Notes: a model not told the origin generated them from the letters alone. Positions 6,481 to 28,670 are shown, numbered from the stretch's first letter. The stretch is DNA of 64,000 nucleotides from an uncultured Pelagibacteraceae bacterium (GCA_902538495.1 CACBFJ010000005.1:20169-84168); one strand, 5' to 3'. A program made the numbers and translations.

Positions 6481-7515
6481 ATGAAAAAAAAAGCATTAAT
6501 ATTTGGTGTAACTGGTCAAGATGGATCACTATTAGCAAGACTTTTAATAAAAAAAAATTATGTTGTTCATGGAATTAAAAGACGTTCATCATCATTTAAT
6601 ACAAGTAGAATAGATGATATTTATCAAAAATATGGAGATAAAAGTTTTTTTCTACATTATGGAGATGTAACAGATTCTTTAAACATTTACTCATTAGTTG
6701 AAAAAATTTTACCTGACGAAATTTACAATTTAGCAGCACAATCACATGTCAAAGTAAGCTTTGAAACACCCGAATATACAGCTAATGCTGATGCTTTAGG
6801 CCCTTTAAGAATTTTAGAGGCGATCAAAAATTTAAAAAAAAGAAAAAAAATTAAATTTTATCAGGCATCAACATCAGAGATGTTTGGTAACTCTTCACCC
6901 CCACAAACTGAAAATACAAAATTGGAACCTGAAAGTCCTTATGGAACAGCAAAAGTATTTGGGTACTGGATAACAAGAAACTATAGAAATGCTTACAATT
7001 TATTTGCCTCAAATGGAATTTTATTTAACCATGAAGGAATATATAGAGGCGAGACATTTGTATCAAAAAAAATTACTAGTGCGGTTGCAAAAATATATTT
7101 AAAAAAACAAAAACATATTACCTTAGGCAATCTTAACGCAAAAAGAGATTGGGGTGATGCACAGGATTATGTTGATGCCATGTATTTGATGATGCAACAA
7201 AAAAAACCTGATGATTTTGTAATTTCAACCGGACAAAGCTACACAGTAAAAAAATTTGTCGAATTAGCATTCAAAGCAATTAATATTAAAATTAGATGGC
7301 AAGGCAAAGGTCTTTCTGAAATAGGTTGTGATGCACAAAACCCAAAAAGAATATATGTGAAGGTTTCATCAAAATACTTTAGACCTAATGAGGTAAATTT
7401 TTTAAAAGGTAGTTCATCCAAGGCAAAAAAACTTCTTGGATGGAAGCCAAAAAAAAAATTTCATGTTATGGTCGAAGAAATGGTGAAATATGATATTAAA
7501 CAACTAAAACTTTAA
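6481..7515 (+). CDS. gmd: GDP-mannose 4,6-dehydratase
   Basis: ALIFGVTGQDGSLLARLL, HGIKRRSSSFNTSRIDDIY, SPYGTAK, RDWGDAQDYVDAM. Confidence 0.95.
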   Translation: MKKKALIFGVTGQDGSLLARLLIKKNYVVHGIKRRSSSFNTSRIDDIYQKYGDKSFFLHYGDVTDSLNIYSLVEKILPDEIYNLAAQSHVKVSFETPEYTANADALGPLRILEAIKNLKKRKKIKFYQASTSEMFGNSSPPQTENTKLEPESPYGTAKVFGYWITRNYRNAYNLFASNGILFNHEGIYRGETFVSKKITSAVAKIYLKKQKHITLGNLNAKRDWGDAQDYVDAMYLMMQQKKPDDFVISTGQSYTVKKFVELAFKAINIKIRWQGKGLSEIGCDAQNPKRIYVKVSSKYFRPNEVNFLKGSSSKAKKLLGWKPKKKFHVMVEEMVKYDIKQLKL

Positions 7516-19690: not shown

Positions 19691-21366
19691 ATGAATTCAC
19701 GACCAAAATTAAAAATTTAAGTACATTTAATTACTATTTTTTAATATTTATAATTGGTTATTTTCCTGTAATTTTATTTGGCACGTTTATTGAGGATGAT
19801 TGGGGCATACTTAATTTAGGAAATAAAAATATACCTCTAGCTATAGAACATATGTGTACTGTTAACAATAACAGACCTTTATCATGCTTATATTTTGGTT
19901 TATTAACTAGACTCTTTCCAAACTTTCAAATTTATTTTTTATTTATCTATTTAATTTACTCATTATTTATTTATGTAACTCTAAAAGTATTTGATTTTTT
20001 AATATTAGATGACGTAGTTAGAAAGATTTTTATAACGTTTTCAATTTTTCCGTTTTTTTCTTATACAATACTTTATTCACCAGCAATGCAAGGTATAGGT
20101 GCTTTATCTTTATTACTTTGGTCTATATCAATTCTTTATTTGAAGAAATACCTAATAGAGCAAAAAAAAATTAATCTTTTTTTGAGTTTTGTTTTCATAA
20201 TTTTACTTTTTTTAGTTTATGAAAGCTCTGCGCCACTTCTTGGTATAAATTTTTTTTTCCCTTTACTATTTAATAAAATAAGAGCATTTATTATAAATTT
20301 TGTTGTAATTATTTTGTTGTTAATATTTGTGTATTACTTGCAGAAATTTATTTTTCCGATAATATTTGAAATTGATTTATCAAGGATTAAGCTTTCTATT
20401 TCTGATTTTAAACAAATATTTTTGTTAATTCTAATCAATACAGCATTATTATTTAATACAATTTTCTATTCTTTAGAAATTTTTGTTAGAAATATATATT
20501 TTAACACTTTATCATTTAATATTAATTTTTATATTCAATTAATACCATTGTTGTTTATTGTTTTTTTGTCTTTCACAGCAAAACCTTCGAATAAAATAAC
20601 TTTTAAAAAACAGAATAGCATAATGCAGAATTATACGTTTGTATTAATGATTCTAGCTGTTTGTTTTTTAACAATATTGATGCACGTTTTAGCAAATACG
20701 GGTATTGAATTTTTAAAGTATAATAATAGAGCATTAACTTCATTATCTTTCTTATTTGCCTTTATATCATTAATTTCTTTTTACATCTTTGGTCAAAAGA
20801 AAAGAAATTTAATAATAGCAATAAATTTCATTATTTTTTTTATATTTATCTTTAATTTTTTAACTTTTCAGAACAACATAATAAGAGAAAACTTTGAAAC
20901 AAAAAAAATATTGTATCAATCATATTCACATGAAAGTATTGATCCAAAAAAAATGGTTATGGTTATATTAGAACGCGAATACACTAGAGAAGTTCTTTCT
21001 TACAATAGTTTAAGTATGTTTACCAAGTTAAAAGAGGATAATGTATACTTAAAAAATTATATTTATCGTAATATAAATATATACAAATTTTGTAACAAAG
21101 ATTATTGGAATGAATATATAAAAAATGGTTTCTTAAATAAGAGATATATTTTTGATATTTTGCATTTTAATTCTAACAATGTACTGATACATCATTTAAA
21201 AAATTTAAGTCCTAATGAGGTGGAGAATTTTTTTGAAAATCATTTTAAGTGTAAACCAACAGAAAAAATTTCAAAGCTTTTGAAAAGAGAGACTTATTTA
21301 GATAAAAGATATGAAGGTATTTTTCTATCTTTCGCAAAATTTATTTTTTTTAGTTTTTATGAATAA
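19687..21366 (+). CDS. polytopic membrane protein, possible GT-C glycosyltransferase
   Basis: Multi-TM with acidic EDDWG motif in the first loop, as in GT-C enzymes. Confidence 0.5.
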   Translation: MNEFTTKIKNLSTFNYYFLIFIIGYFPVILFGTFIEDDWGILNLGNKNIPLAIEHMCTVNNNRPLSCLYFGLLTRLFPNFQIYFLFIYLIYSLFIYVTLKVFDFLILDDVVRKIFITFSIFPFFSYTILYSPAMQGIGALSLLLWSISILYLKKYLIEQKKINLFLSFVFIILLFLVYESSAPLLGINFFFPLLFNKIRAFIINFVVIILLLIFVYYLQKFIFPIIFEIDLSRIKLSISDFKQIFLLILINTALLFNTIFYSLEIFVRNIYFNTLSFNINFYIQLIPLLFIVFLSFTAKPSNKITFKKQNSIMQNYTFVLMILAVCFLTILMHVLANTGIEFLKYNNRALTSLSFLFAFISLISFYIFGQKKRNLIIAINFIIFFIFIFNFLTFQNNIIRENFETKKILYQSYSHESIDPKKMVMVILEREYTREVLSYNSLSMFTKLKEDNVYLKNYIYRNINIYKFCNKDYWNEYIKNGFLNKRYIFDILHFNSNNVLIHHLKNLSPNEVENFFENHFKCKPTEKISKLLKRETYLDKRYEGIFLSFAKFIFFSFYE

Positions 21367-22291
21367 AAAAAAAATATTAATTCTTGGATCATCTGGAATG
21401 GTTGGTTCTTCAATTGTTCGAAATATAAATAAAAAAAAATATCAACTTTTAACCCCTAGAAGAAAAGAGCTTAATTTATTTTATAGCGAAAAAGTAATCA
21501 AATATTTTTTAAAAAAAAAACCTGATACAGTGATTTTAGCTGCTGCAAAAGTTGGAGGCATATATGCTAATAGCAATTTTCCAGCAGATTTTATTCATGA
21601 AAACTTAAAAATCCAAAATAATATTATCGAAGCATGTAACCAAATCAAAAATATAAAATTAATATTTTTAGGATCGTCTTGCATATATCCAAGAAATTGC
21701 AAACAACCAATAAAGGAGGAATATTTACTTAATGGATCCCTTGAAAAAACAAACGAACCATATGCAATTGCAAAAATTGCAGGAATAAAAATGATACAAG
21801 CATATAGATCTCAATATAAGAAAAACTATATTGCTTTGATGCCAACAAATATTTATGGACCCAATGATAACTTTGATGAGATGAATAGCCATGTTATTGC
21901 AGGGTTAATTAAAAAAATATCAGATGCTAAGATAAAAAAAAAAAAAACAGTTAAATTGTGGGGGTCTGGAAAACCACTAAGGGATTTCTTATATGTAGAT
22001 GATCTAGCAAAGGCAATAATTTTGCTTATGGAGAGATATAATGGTGAAGGGATAATTAATATAGGTAGTGGAGAAGAAATATCAATAAATAAACTTGCGT
22101 TAAAAATAAAAAAAAAATTAAATTATAATGGAAAAATATTATTTGATAGAAATTTTCCCGACGGTACACCAAGAAAAATTTTAGATATAAATAAAATCAA
22201 AAAGTTCAGATGGCGTCCAACAATTTCTATAGATGAAGGACTAAGTTTGGCAATCAATGATTATAAGAAAAATTTTAGGAATGATGATTGA
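21359..22291 (+). CDS. fcl: GDP-L-fucose synthase
   Basis: ILGSSGMVGSSIVR, AAAKVGGIYANSNFPADFIHENL, SSCIYP, YAIAK; start moved to ATG 21359. Confidence 0.93.
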   Translation: MNKKKILILGSSGMVGSSIVRNINKKKYQLLTPRRKELNLFYSEKVIKYFLKKKPDTVILAAAKVGGIYANSNFPADFIHENLKIQNNIIEACNQIKNIKLIFLGSSCIYPRNCKQPIKEEYLLNGSLEKTNEPYAIAKIAGIKMIQAYRSQYKKNYIALMPTNIYGPNDNFDEMNSHVIAGLIKKISDAKIKKKKTVKLWGSGKPLRDFLYVDDLAKAIILLMERYNGEGIINIGSGEEISINKLALKIKKKLNYNGKILFDRNFPDGTPRKILDINKIKKFRWRPTISIDEGLSLAINDYKKNFRNDD

Positions 22292-23522: not shown

Positions 23523-24734
23523 TTATATTAATTTTGTTTTTGATGAAATAAATTGATCAATTTTATTGCATATATATTTAAGCTCTTTTTCTTTCATACC
23601 ATGATGACATCCAATTAAAATACCGTTCTCCATTACATAATTACTTTCAACTTCACAATTTTTTGTTTTTATATATTTTTTACTTTTCATAAGAGGTTGC
23701 TTTAAAATATTTCCAGAAAATATAACTCTAGTTTGAATATTATTCTCCTCTAAAAAAATTTGAAGTTCATTTCTCTTAAAAAATTTATTTGGTTTAATTA
23801 TAAATGGATATGCTAACCAGCAAGTTTTAATATATTTTTCTTGCTTTGGAATTTCTATTAGTTCTTTATATCTTTTTAAGTAACTTGATAATATTTTAAA
23901 ATTTTTATTCCTTTTTAAAAAATTTTTTCTTAATTTCTTTATTTGCTCAATTGCAAATGCAGCTGAAAATTCTGATGGAATAAAATTATATCCAAATTCT
24001 AAAAAAACGTATTTTTTATCATAATTAATTTTTAATTTTTCTTTTTTAAATCTATTTTTAATGCTTTCATTTTCATTATATATTGCTGAAGATCTTCCCC
24101 AAGCTCTTAAAACTTTCGCTTTTTCATAAAATTTTTTATCATTAAAACAAACCATACCACCAAAACCTGCACCTGTAACAATATGTGATGCATAAAAACT
24201 TGTTGTAACAATATCCGAATAATAACCTGTTGTTTTGCCTCTAATTCTATATCCAATGGTATCTGCAGAATCTTCAATTAAAAAAATTTTTTTTTTTTTA
24301 CATAATCTTTTAATTTTGTCCCAGTCAGGAATATTTCCAAGTAGGTTAGGAATAAACATAGCTTTTGTTTTTTTATTTATAGCTTTTTTTATTTGATTTA
24401 AATCAGCAATATATTTGTCTTTTTCTACATCAACAAATTTAGGTATCAAACCAAGTTGATAAATTGGTGCAATTGTGGTTGAAAAAGTAAGTGTTGGTGT
24501 AATTATCTCAGAACCTTTTTTTAAGTTTAATGAAGCTAATGCTAGTAAATTTGCTGAAGATCCAGAATTTACCATCAAGGCAAATTTTTTGCCAAAAATT
24601 TTTGCTACAATATTTTCTAATTTTTTAACATTTTTTCCATCCATTAAACTTAATGGATTTTTTCTTAAAACATTAGTTGCTGCTGCAATTTCATTTTTAC
24701 CATATACTGCTTTTGCATAGAATATTTTTTTCAT
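23523..24734 (-). CDS. DegT/DnrJ/EryC1-fold PLP enzyme, ColD-like sugar 3-dehydrase
   Basis: Aspartate-aminotransferase-fold motifs (NSGSSANLLAL, EDSADTIG); SFYASH has His at the usual Lys position; no Fe-S Cys cluster after AWGR. Confidence 0.82.
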   Translation of the reverse strand: MKKIFYAKAVYGKNEIAAATNVLRKNPLSLMDGKNVKKLENIVAKIFGKKFALMVNSGSSANLLALASLNLKKGSEIITPTLTFSTTIAPIYQLGLIPKFVDVEKDKYIADLNQIKKAINKKTKAMFIPNLLGNIPDWDKIKRLCKKKKIFLIEDSADTIGYRIRGKTTGYYSDIVTTSFYASHIVTGAGFGGMVCFNDKKFYEKAKVLRAWGRSSAIYNENESIKNRFKKEKLKINYDKKYVFLEFGYNFIPSEFSAAFAIEQIKKLRKNFLKRNKNFKILSSYLKRYKELIEIPKQEKYIKTCWLAYPFIIKPNKFFKRNELQIFLEENNIQTRVIFSGNILKQPLMKSKKYIKTKNCEVESNYVMENGILIGCHHGMKEKELKYICNKIDQFISSKTKLI

Positions 24735-25264
24735 AAGTATTTATATTTTTTCAAAAAACTATTTAAACTTAAATTTTTTTTATCTTTACTTGATATAATA
24801 AATTTTTTTTTATTCAATTTTAGATTTAACTTATTGTCAAAAAAATCTATACCCATTTCATCCTTTTCAGACCTCATGGAAGTATTTTTGTATAATACGA
24901 TATTCTCTTTTCCTTTAGCTATAAAGCCATGAGCAAAGCCTGCCGGGACATAAAGCGACATGCCATTTTCAGTAGATAAGGTTTTTTTATAAATCTTTAA
25001 AAAAGTTTTTGAATTATTTCTTAAATCTAAGCAATAGTCAATTATTTCACCTTTTAACACAATTATTAATTTATCTTGTTGATTATTTTTTTGAAAATGA
25101 AGTCCTCTAAGGGTATTTTTTTTTGATAAAGAATAATACTCAAATATAAATTTTTTATTTAAAATTTTTTTTTTAAATATTTCTCTTAAGTAACCTCTAT
25201 TATCAAAAAATTTTTTTGATTTTAAAATAAATAAATCTTTAAATTTAGTTTTAATTTTTTCCAT
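24731..25264 (-). CDS. RmlC-like dTDP-4-keto-6-deoxyhexose 3,5- or 5-epimerase
   Basis: DNRGYLREIF, TLRGLHFQ, VLKGEIIDYCLDLR, VPAGFAHGF. Confidence 0.87.
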   Translation of the reverse strand: MEKIKTKFKDLFILKSKKFFDNRGYLREIFKKKILNKKFIFEYYSLSKKNTLRGLHFQKNNQQDKLIIVLKGEIIDYCLDLRNNSKTFLKIYKKTLSTENGMSLYVPAGFAHGFIAKGKENIVLYKNTSMRSEKDEMGIDFFDNKLNLKLNKKKFIISSKDKKNLSLNSFLKKYKYL

Positions 25265-26111
25265 TTATTATTCTTTCAAAATCTTTTTCTATAAAATTTT
25301 TTTGTTTCCAAAAGGGAAGTTTTTTAATTTTAAAATTAATTATAGTATATCTATTTCTCATTTGTTTTATCTTAATTTTTTTTGATTTTTTTTTATTAAA
25401 TTTGATAATTAAATTTTTTATATTTGAAAAATTTTTTGACTTAATCTGATACGAGTTTGGTTTAATTTTTTTTGTTAAAATTATATTAATTGCTTCTAAA
25501 ATATCATCAACATGAAGAAAGTTTAATCTAAGATTTGAAAAAGATAAAAACACTCTCTTATTCTGGTGGTAATTTTTTTTTATAATTGGTATAATTTTAT
25601 TTCTTTCATCATTATCAGAATAGCTTTCATAAAATTTAAGATTATAAAATGAAATATTTAAATACTTTTTTTTAAAATATTCCAATAATGTCTCAAGTGA
25701 CCTTTTGCTACCTGCATATAAGTTATAAGGAAAAAATTCATTGTTATTATAGTGCTCATGCATAGTACCTATTGTAATAACTTTTTTAACATAAAGTTTA
25801 TTTAGCCCATTTAATAGTATTAATGGAAATTTAATATTTGATTCTATTATTTTTTCTAAGTTTTTATTATCATTTAGTTTTGTATAATGTGTTGCTAAAT
25901 TTATAAAAAAATCAAACTTTATTTTAAATAAATTTTTATTAAATTTATCATCTTCAAAGAAATAGTATTTTATATTATTATGTTTTATTAAATTTTTTCT
26001 ATTTTTTTTTTTATTTCTTAATATTACAAAAAAAAAGTAAAAATTCTTATATTTATCTAGAAAATTTTTTCCAATAAATCCTGTGCCACCTGTTAACAAT
26101 ATTTTTTTCAC
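25251..26111 (-). CDS. NAD(P)-dependent SDR, putative 4-ketoreductase/epimerase
   Basis: LLTGGTGFIGKNF, YAGSK, LRLNFLHVDDILEA. Confidence 0.82.
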   Translation of the reverse strand: MKKILLTGGTGFIGKNFLDKYKNFYFFFVILRNKKKNRKNLIKHNNIKYYFFEDDKFNKNLFKIKFDFFINLATHYTKLNDNKNLEKIIESNIKFPLILLNGLNKLYVKKVITIGTMHEHYNNNEFFPYNLYAGSKRSLETLLEYFKKKYLNISFYNLKFYESYSDNDERNKIIPIIKKNYHQNKRVFLSFSNLRLNFLHVDDILEAINIILTKKIKPNSYQIKSKNFSNIKNLIIKFNKKKSKKIKIKQMRNRYTIINFKIKKLPFWKQKNFIEKDFERIINGKN

Positions 26112-26974
26112 GTTATTAAACTTTGCAAGTATTTACTGTATGGAGAATTCCCATAAAATTTAATTGACTTTTTTAGTTGTATTTTGTTTATCCAATTCTT
26201 TGAAAAAGAGATTTCTTCGAGACATGCTATTTTAAATCCTTGTCTTTTCTCTAGATTGTAAACAAAACTCCCCGCTTCAAATACTCCTTCTGGAGTTCCA
26301 GTATCTAGCCACGCAGCTCCTCTGCCTAATATATGATAATTAAGTTTATTTTTTTTTAGATATATATTTAAAAGATCAATTATTTCAGTTTCATTTCTTT
26401 TTGATTTTATGAGTTTATTTGAAAATTTTGATACAGATTTATCAAAAAAATATAAACCACTTATTGCTAAATCTGATTTAGTTTTTTTAGGTTTTTCTTT
26501 TAAGGATACTATTTTTTTATTTTTCATTACTGCAACACCAAAATCATTTGGATTTTTAACTTTGTAACAAAATATTTTCGCACCCTTAAATTTTTTTTTA
26601 GAAGTTATAAGTAGTTCAGAAAGTCCTTGTCCATAAAAAAAATTATCACCAAGAATTAAAGCAACATTTGAATTTTTAATAAAATCTTTACCAATACTAA
26701 AAGCTTCTGGTATCCCTGATGGTTTGTCTTGAATTTTGTAAGTTAATTTAATACCAAATCTACTACCATTACCTAATAACTTTTTATAAAGATTTATATC
26801 ATCTTTATTAACTATTATTAATATATCAGTAATCTCAGATAACATTAAAATTGATAATGGGTAAAAAATCAAAGGTTTATCGAATATTGGTAATAAATGT
26901 TTATTAACAGATTTTGTCATTGGGTTTAATCTTGAACCAAGCCCTCCAGCTAGAATAATTCCTTTAAACTTCAT
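26108..26974 (-). CDS. rfbA: glucose-1-phosphate thymidylyltransferase
   Basis: GIILAGGLGSRLNPMT, KHLLPIFDKPLIFYPLS, LILGDNFFYG, WLDTGTPEGVFEAGSFV. Confidence 0.93.
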   Translation of the reverse strand: MKFKGIILAGGLGSRLNPMTKSVNKHLLPIFDKPLIFYPLSILMLSEITDILIIVNKDDINLYKKLLGNGSRFGIKLTYKIQDKPSGIPEAFSIGKDFIKNSNVALILGDNFFYGQGLSELLITSKKKFKGAKIFCYKVKNPNDFGVAVMKNKKIVSLKEKPKKTKSDLAISGLYFFDKSVSKFSNKLIKSKRNETEIIDLLNIYLKKNKLNYHILGRGAAWLDTGTPEGVFEAGSFVYNLEKRQGFKIACLEEISFSKNWINKIQLKKSIKFYGNSPYSKYLQSLIT

Positions 26975-27972
26975 AAAGATCCAAGCCTTTTATCTTTATA
27001 TTTCTTTTTAATTTCACTAAGCCAACTTTTATTATTTTTATACCAACTAATTGTTTTTTTAATTCCTTTATTAAAACTATGTTTATTTCTCCATTTATAT
27101 CGTTTTCTAAAACTTGTTGAGTTTAAAGCATACCTCAAATCATGACCTGGGCGATCTTTTACAAAAATTAAATTTTTATTCGAGTATTTTAGTTGTTTTA
27201 ATATAATTTTTGATACCATTAAATTATCTAACCTTATATTACTCCCAATATTAAAAACTTCCTTATTTTGAAAATTTTTTATAATTAAATATATTGCTTC
27301 ACAGGTATCTTCAACATAGATCCATTCTCTTATATTTTTCCCTTTTCCATAAATTGGTATTTTTTTTTTATCAAACGCTCTCAAAATTATTTTGGGTATA
27401 AGCTTTTCTGGAAATTGAAAGGGCCCAAAATTATTTGTAATTCTTAAAATACAAATATTTAAACCATACGTTTCTAAATAGAATTGAGCAATATTTTCAC
27501 TAGATGCTTTTGAGGCTGAATATGGTGAGCTTGTAAAAATTTTTGAATTTTCTTTTGTATTACCTTTTTTTACTGAACCGTAAACTTCATCTGTAGAAAT
27601 ATGAATTATATTTGGTTTTTTTATTTTATTTTTTTTTACTAAATTATTTATTTCATTATAAAAATTTATTGTAGAATTAATATTCCCCAGATAAAAATTT
27701 TTTGGGTTGTCAATAGATCTATCCACATGACTTTCCGCAGCTAAGTGAATAATTGTATTATAATTTTTCAGCAAAATTGGTCTTATCTTTTTTATATTAT
27801 CTATGTTTACTTTGTAGAATTTATATTTAGTTGTTTCTTGTTTAAATTTTTCAGGCGTAGAAACAATTGATTGCTTATCTAAATTTGTTATGGAAAAGTT
27901 TTTTCTATTTAGGTAATTAACTAGGTTTGTTCCAATAAAACCCGATCCTCCTGTTATAAGAATATTTTTCAT
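26971..27972 (-). CDS. rfbB: dTDP-glucose 4,6-dehydratase
   Basis: ITGGSGFIGTNLV, HLAAESHVDRSIDNP, STDEVYGS, YSASK, DRPGHDLRYA. Confidence 0.94.
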   Translation of the reverse strand: MKNILITGGSGFIGTNLVNYLNRKNFSITNLDKQSIVSTPEKFKQETTKYKFYKVNIDNIKKIRPILLKNYNTIIHLAAESHVDRSIDNPKNFYLGNINSTINFYNEINNLVKKNKIKKPNIIHISTDEVYGSVKKGNTKENSKIFTSSPYSASKASSENIAQFYLETYGLNICILRITNNFGPFQFPEKLIPKIILRAFDKKKIPIYGKGKNIREWIYVEDTCEAIYLIIKNFQNKEVFNIGSNIRLDNLMVSKIILKQLKYSNKNLIFVKDRPGHDLRYALNSTSFRKRYKWRNKHSFNKGIKKTISWYKNNKSWLSEIKKKYKDKRLGSL

Positions 27973-28670
27973 TTAAATTTAAGTATATCGATAATAAATT
28001 TTATTGCATAAATTAAATGAAATGATGATTTTTCGTTTCTGTAGTAAGTTTTAATTGGAAATTCTACAATTTTTTTTTTTGCTTTTATCAACTTAATTCT
28101 TAACTGATTATCAAAATTAAAATTATTATCTATTTTTTTTAAATTAATTTTTTTAAGGGCACTCAAATTATAAAGCCAGAAACCGTTATGAGCATCAGTA
28201 AAATTTGTTTTAAATGCCAAGTTGAAGACTCTGGTTAATATCAAATTTCCTAAAATTTTATAGATAGGCATTTTACCAATTAGAGCATTATTCAAGTTTT
28301 TCATTCTAGTACCAGTTACAGCATCAGCATTATTTAATAACATATGTTTATAGAATTTTTCTAGATATCTGCAATCATATTGATTATCCCCATGGACCAT
28401 TAAACTATGTGAGTAACCTTTTTTTATTGCAAAATTTAGACATTTTTTTACATTCCCACCATAACCTAGATTTCTTTTATTAATTTTTAAAATATAACCA
28501 CTATTATTTTTTGGAAAATAATATTTAGTATTGTCAGTAGAACAATCGTCACTTATTAAAATATCAAATTTAATTTTTCTTCTTAGAGTTTTTAGTTTTT
28601 TTAATATTAATCCTAATCTAAATGATGAATTATAAGTTACCACAAATACTAAGATTTTACTTTTTGGCAT
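27969..28670 (-). CDS. glycosyltransferase family 2 (DPMS/DPG-synthase-like)
   Basis: VFVVTYNSSFRL, ILISDDCSTDNT, MVHGDNQYD, TDAHNGFWLY. Confidence 0.87.
   Translation of the reverse strand: MPKSKILVFVVTYNSSFRLGLILKKLKTLRRKIKFDILISDDCSTDNTKYYFPKNNSGYILKINKRNLGYGGNVKKCLNFAIKKGYSHSLMVHGDNQYDCRYLEKFYKHMLLNNADAVTGTRMKNLNNALIGKMPIYKILGNLILTRVFNLAFKTNFTDAHNGFWLYNLSALKKINLKKIDNNFNFDNQLRIKLIKAKKKIVEFPIKTYYRNEKSSFHLIYAIKFIIDILKFK

Follow-up and report, generated by a model that had tools for sequence, protein, structure and literature searches.

Within a 64,000-nt stretch of DNA from an uncultured Pelagibacteraceae (SAR11) bacterium (GCA_902538495.1 CACBFJ010000005.1:20169-84168; hereafter the window), part of contig C5 in a genome of 966 kb, six minus-strand genes run from 28670 down to 23523 with successive overlaps of 4, 4, 4, 14, and 4 nt. 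From the 5′ end, these encode a family-2 glycosyltransferase, RmlB, RmlA, a short-chain dehydrogenase/reductase (SDR), a homologue of RmlC, and a DegT-fold enzyme of the type that works with pyridoxal or pyridoxamine 5′-phosphate (PLP or PMP). It is probable that this operon makes a 3,6-dideoxyhexose, activated with deoxythymidine diphosphate (dTDP), for a surface polysaccharide, with the DegT-fold enzyme as predicted 3-dehydrase for the C3 deoxygenation of a 4-keto-6-deoxysugar. An earlier sequence-only reading had described five overlapping open reading frames (ORFs); these lie where it placed them, with overlaps of 4, 14, 4, and 4 nt, and the glycosyltransferase gene extends the operon further upstream. 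The identities it gave for RmlA, RmlB, RmlC, and DegT are borne out by NCBIfam, Pfam, and PDB searches. The features are as follows:

27969..28670, minus strand: family-2 glycosyltransferase, first gene of the operon (PF00535, 49.6 bits); 4-nt overlap with rmlB
26971..27972, minus strand: RmlB/RfbB dTDP-glucose 4,6-dehydratase (TIGR01181, 340.7 bits, against 87 bits for cytidine diphosphate (CDP)-glucose 4,6-dehydratase)
26108..26974, minus strand: RmlA/RfbA glucose-1-phosphate thymidylyltransferase (TIGR01207, 352.8 bits; PDB 1lvw, E=1.5e-88)
25251..26111, minus strand: extended SDR, predicted 4-ketoreductase (PF01370, 78 bits; GTG start; GxxGFIG and YxxxK present)
24731..25264, minus strand: RmlC-family cupin, predicted 5- (or 3,5-) epimerase (PF00908, 147.5 bits; TIGR01221, 139.8 bits)
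23523..24734, minus strand: DegT/AHBA-fold PMP/PLP enzyme, predicted iron-sulfur (Fe-S)-independent dTDP-4-keto-6-deoxyglucose 3-dehydrase (PF01041, 258 bits)
24183..24200, minus strand: SFYASH codons, Ser179-His184 (His184 is CAT at 24183-24185)

The closest match to the window is the single-cell genome AG-916-L11, also from an uncultured Pelagibacteraceae bacterium (L106; compared loci and genomes carry L- and G-numbers, respectively), in which the gene order is identical. Four genes (DegT, RmlC, SDR, and RmlA) are 85-92% identical between the two, and with ratios of nonsynonymous to synonymous substitution rates (dN/dS) of 0.10-0.16 they are under purifying selection. Because the operon is kept in an independent single-cell genome under such constraint, it is neither a chance arrangement nor an assembly artefact. 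RmlB and the glycosyltransferase (26971-28670) are far more diverged, at 63 and 59% identity, which suggests that this part of the operon was exchanged as a cassette. The glycosyltransferase holds the same position in L046 and L106, and may be the enzyme that transfers the operon's sugar.

Active site and family of the DegT-fold enzyme

The DegT protein scores far above the PF01041 gathering cut-off of 19.8 bits. The sequence-only reading had placed the His of SFYASH at the position of the Schiff-base lysine, and a family alignment that includes K-type aminotransferases agrees, with His184 standing in the SFxxxK PLP-lysine column and opposite the active-site His of E1/RfbH. Pairwise HMMER alignments disagree on the register, in that His184 faces E1 His220, yet Ser183 faces ColD His188. 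Ser183 was rejected as the counterpart of ColD His188, because the family alignment, which contains K-type aminotransferases as well as E1, and the Gly-Gly spacing together overrule it. The His-His pair of ColD stays one step shifted in the family alignment, and ColD His188 was assigned to the site by counting back from the Gly-Gly. Across 99 family members His184 is invariant, both in the clade of the window's enzyme (61/61) and in CDP-linked relatives (38/38). The four Fe-S cysteines of RfbH/E1, already reported missing from the window's enzyme, are absent from all clade members, and the corresponding columns hold Ser, Ala, Ile/Thr/Val, or a gap.

An AlphaFold model built with 48 sequences (predicted local distance difference test 93.0; predicted template modelling score 0.91) has as its closest Foldseek match the E1 dehydrase (template modelling (TM) score 0.90, 30% identity), followed by ColD (TM 0.85) and then by aminotransferases. 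A PDB sequence search likewise returns E1 first and ColD next; 9wvy, a putative NDP-4-keto-6-deoxyglucose-3-dehydratase, is a weaker match at 109 bits. The NCBIfam RfbH model (NF011936) matches at 316.6 bits, under its cut-off of 423, as do relatives from Bacteroidetes, Rhodospirillales, and Sinorhizobium (317-332 bits), and NCBIfam holds no model specific to this Fe-S-less family. In a tree of 130 rows the family (119 rows) splits from both E1/RfbH and ColD, the latter on a long branch. By its tree position, the predicted dehydrase is a member of a third His-type 3-dehydrase family, Fe-S-less and neither ColD nor RfbH. The earlier description of the enzyme as ColD-like survives for its predicted chemistry; in sequence, fold, and tree position it belongs to this family of its own, which by score is slightly nearer E1 than ColD.

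The same data bear on a rival reading, which we would hardly credit, that the enzyme acts as an aminotransferase despite its unusual active site and makes an amino sugar. The aminotransferase fold is shared, and the His-type enzyme SpnQ can transaminate when its reductase is missing (PMC8987622), but His occupies the lysine column in all members. Moreover, the enzyme groups in the tree with the dehydrases and not with true (SFxxxK) aminotransferases.

E1, ColD, and SpnQ all use PMP together with a His; E1 and SpnQ need an Fe-S cluster and reductants, and ColD relies on hydrolysis of the intermediate and on glutamate (PMC8987622). With E1/RfbH, the Yersinia CDP-4-keto-6-deoxyglucose 3-dehydrase (PDB 3bcx, 3bb8), the window's enzyme shares its fold, about 30% identity, the active-site His, and a predicted gluco-configured 4-keto-6-deoxy substrate, but it lacks the [2Fe-2S] cysteines, is linked to RmlA/RmlB rather than RfbF/RfbG, scores under the RfbH cut-off, and forms a separate clade. 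With ColD, the 3-dehydrase of guanosine diphosphate (GDP)-4-keto-6-deoxymannose (PDB 2gms, 3b8x), it shares the active-site His, the lack of Fe-S, a predicted hydrolytic mechanism, and about 31% identity, but differs in its clade, its dTDP context, and its independence of GMD. In the proposed mechanism the PMP form would condense with the 4-keto group of the substrate, His184 would abstract the C4′ proton of PMP, and the C3 hydroxyl would be expelled. Since Fe-S ligands are absent, the intermediate would probably be hydrolysed as in ColD, giving dTDP-4-keto-3,6-dideoxyglucose and ammonia, with PMP restored by glutamate.

Two further His-type proteins were seen. In the closest relative, a second DegT protein (SFYYSHQIT) lies beside the operon on the opposite strand (L046 ORF 6; L106 about 9091), and the tree groups it with ColD. 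A homologue on a Rhodococcus plasmid (L040 8992-10215) has the active site SFAMAH, a long branch, and no sugar-nucleotide genes annotated nearby.

Nucleotide carrier and precursor supply

The sequence-only reading took the thymidylyltransferase as pointing to dTDP, and RmlA is indeed the only nucleotidyltransferase of the operon and the only RmlA in the window's genome assembly. It is full length and scores 8 bits under the TIGR01207 cut-off (360.65); all of its top PDB matches are RmlA, and a cytidylyltransferase follows far behind (E=4e-4). The best PDB matches of RmlB are dTDP-glucose 4,6-dehydratases. By strong homology, RmlA would form dTDP-glucose, which RmlB would convert to dTDP-4-keto-6-deoxyglucose.

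Gene neighbours were scored for the 119 members of the DegT family, with near-copies counted, as the two collections have some single-cell genomes in common. Thirty-eight members lie with rfbF and/or rfbG and no rmlA, 29 with rmlA and no rfbF/rfbG, and 52 with neither. On the 130-row tree a single change accounts for the dTDP and CDP labels, as it does on a more careful tree of 73 rows. The dTDP-linked group (61 rows; SH-like approximate likelihood ratio test 96) comprises Pelagibacteraceae, four other marine alphaproteobacterial loci (L135, L136, L138, and L145), and two members from a second family of the order; all 29 rmlA-linked members fall inside it and all 38 rfbF/rfbG-linked ones outside. 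Near the active-site motifs it is set apart by Tyr162 (58/61, against Ala in 34/38 CDP-linked members) and Ala182 (61/61, against Gly in 38/38), and it carries a three-residue insertion around positions 30-32 relative to CDP-linked members. Phylogeny and context strengthen the predicted use of dTDP, in that one dTDP-linked group sits within an otherwise CDP-linked family.

The dehydrase could instead share the substrate of its nearest relatives, CDP-4-keto-6-deoxyglucose, and the rml genes be mere neighbours, which we regard as very unlikely. The 38 members linked to rfbF/rfbG elsewhere would fit such a role, but these genes adjoin none of the 61 clade members. In the window's genome neither RfbF (best score 22 bits) nor RfbG (best score 87 bits, to RmlB itself) was found, and both are absent from G258, G048, G244, G096, G208, and G195 as well. 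A GDP-colitose pathway has its own local evidence, as the genome encodes GMD (510 bits; about 6487-7503 in the window) and the window holds a homologue of the GDP-fucose synthase Fcl (21311-22291); with both, GDP-4-keto-6-deoxymannose should be present in the cell. DegT would then act like ColD on that compound and the Fcl homologue would be a ColC-like synthase. Such an arrangement is extremely improbable, as DegT lies inside the rml operon on the strand opposite to the Fcl homologue, the enzyme falls outside the ColD clade, and GMD is absent from six genomes that have the clade's DegT (G048, G062, G119, G195, G208, and G244). The relative G048 (97% complete), which carries rmlB-rmlA-SDR-DegT-rmlC, has none of RfbF, RfbG, or GMD, so that dTDP-4-keto-6-deoxyglucose is its sole recognised precursor.

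Several points nonetheless weigh against a dTDP-linked substrate. The window's genome, which is 86.5% complete, could through GMD also supply the GDP sugar, and RmlA was not detected in seven clade genomes, four of which have an RfbF-like gene, as the use of CDP would have it. Support for the dTDP-linked group is only 67/89 in the 73-row tree, and we infer the substrate of the dehydrase from the neighbouring genes. With these points counted, we still lean towards a history in which an Fe-S-free His-type 3-dehydrase family switched once from CDP to dTDP. SAR11 and certain other marine Alphaproteobacteria would thereby have gained a pathway to a dTDP-3,6-dideoxyhexose (dTDP-ascarylose or the epimer at C4) in which the rhamnose and dideoxyhexose routes are merged.

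Two observations concern the CDP-type genes. A shortened (~237 aa) RfbF-like nucleotidyltransferase, mostly beside an RfbG-like gene, occurs in several Pelagibacteraceae (L186-L191), some of them without RmlA. Furthermore, rhizobia, roseobacters, and sphingomonads share a conserved module of rfbF, rfbG, DegT (with His and no Fe-S), S-adenosylmethionine-dependent methyltransferase, SDR, and glycosyltransferase genes (L038, L039, L042, L143, L144, L155, L161, L168, and similar), for which a methylated CDP-dideoxy sugar is the predicted product.

Epimerase, reductase, and predicted product

An epimerase and a ketoreductase had been proposed to complete an ascarylose-like L-sugar. Both gene types are present; the reaction of the RmlC homologue is less certain than had been supposed, and the SDR is not reserved for 3-deoxy sugars. 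In alignments the RmlC homologue retains the base His56 but has Arg131 at the position of the catalytic Tyr, and it scores under the TIGR01221 cut-off of 155.75 bits. The SDR has no RmlD match in NCBIfam, and an RmlD above the cut-off was not found in the window's genome (best 52 bits). Across 297 genomes of the order (E<=1e-25) the SDR occurs in 19, namely in 13 of the 28 with the clade's DegT and in 6 of the 269 others (Fisher p=4e-11).

These proteins also contain the case for an ordinary dTDP-6-deoxy-L-hexose (rhamnose or 6-deoxytalose), made by RmlA, RmlB, the RmlC homologue, and the SDR, with DegT as a passenger or as an optional branch by which both sugars would be made. In all six SDR loci without the clade's DegT the SDR is paired with rmlA and/or rmlC; L195 and L197-L199 have the full rmlA-SDR-rmlC set and no DegT nearby, and in G007 (99% complete), which carries the set too, nothing matches DegT. 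The change of Tyr to Arg in RmlC is likewise found in loci without this DegT (L096 and L098), and given Arg131 the predicted epimerase activity is the weakest link of the pathway. Because it occurs with rmlA and/or rmlC where the clade's DegT is missing, the SDR is most plausibly a 4-ketoreductase that can act in the making of more than one sugar, and it may serve a 6-deoxyhexose. We consider this reading, in either form, unlikely, however, as DegT overlaps rmlC by 4 nt, is under purifying selection, and adjoins the SDR and/or rmlC in many loci despite differing gene order, and as genomes with this DegT carry the SDR more often than others do. Two candidate markers were dropped along the same lines: the Arg of RmlC as a sign of a 3-deoxy substrate, since RmlC genes distant from this DegT share it, and the SDR as an exclusive partner of DegT, since it also occurs in loci without it. 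Most Pelagibacteraceae RmlC homologues carry the Arg, with DegT nearby or not (including L096, L098, and L100).

In the favoured dTDP-3,6-dideoxyhexose pathway, the RmlC homologue would invert C5 and the SDR would reduce C4, yielding dTDP-L-ascarylose (3,6-dideoxy-L-arabino-hexose) or its C4 epimer, 3,6-dideoxy-L-lyxo-hexose, depending on the face of reduction; the order of these steps and the stereochemistry are what we infer. Colitose would, on stereochemical grounds, additionally require inversion at C2. The RmlABCD route to dTDP-L-rhamnose shares RmlA, RmlB, and an RmlC homologue with the operon, which differs in having another SDR in place of RmlD, an added 3-dehydrase, and Arg for Tyr in RmlC. 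The CDP-ascarylose pathway of Yersinia pseudotuberculosis has the predicted sequence of 3-deoxygenation, 5-epimerisation, and 4-reduction, a likeness at the level of the reactions, but uses CDP in place of dTDP and an Fe-S dehydrase. Unlike the ColD system, the operon has RmlC and a separate SDR rather than a ColC-type epimerase-reductase.

To our knowledge, the described polysaccharide routes to 3,6-dideoxyhexoses use CDP or GDP. The sequence-only reading set dTDP against these carriers, a contrast that holds for a 3,6-dideoxyhexose made without Fe-S but not for C3 deoxygenation as such, already known on dTDP from the His-type enzyme SpnQ in the formation of 2,3,6-trideoxyhexoses (PMC8987622). 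The new element of the proposed pathway is the combination of dTDP, a 3,6-dideoxyhexose, and the lack of Fe-S. SpnQ, the spinosyn dTDP-4-keto-2,6-dideoxyglucose 3-dehydrase, resembles the window's enzyme in its dTDP-linked C3 deoxygenation and His-type DegT fold, and is set apart, by description rather than by sequence, by its Fe-S cluster, 2,6-dideoxy substrate, and 2,3,6-trideoxyhexose product (PMC8987622). Paulomycin biosynthesis (PMC4802897) was rejected as a precedent, as it uses a 2,3-dehydratase and different chemistry. In the literature searched, whose coverage is incomplete and gives no proof of novelty, dTDP-ascarylose, -paratose, -abequose, -colitose, and -tyvelose are not named, and the same incomplete coverage gave no match for an iron-sulfur 3-dehydratase acting on a dTDP-4-keto-6-deoxy sugar.

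SAR11 are very common ocean bacteria whose hypervariable surface genes matter in phage recognition, 3,6-dideoxyhexoses, which are short of two oxygens, are strong surface antigens, and dTDP is the carrier for natural-product glycosyltransferases. If the proposal is right, the dTDP route is a new branch of deoxysugar biosynthesis that places a rare sugar on the SAR11 surface, reveals a change of nucleotide specificity within one dehydrase family with candidate residues in hand, and offers an Fe-S-free enzyme for building deoxysugars on dTDP.

In place of the operon-type SDR, other loci have an RmlD-like SDR of ~235 residues, beside rmlA/rmlC in many Pelagibacteraceae (L055 9166-9867; L092, L094, and L098), which is possibly a reduced RmlD. 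In the CDP clusters of the Bacteroidetes loci L141 and L177, a dehydrase of the DegT family discussed here occurs together with rmlC and a gene for a short RmlD-like reductase, a pairing that provides a parallel for the reaction order that an ascarylose-type route needs.

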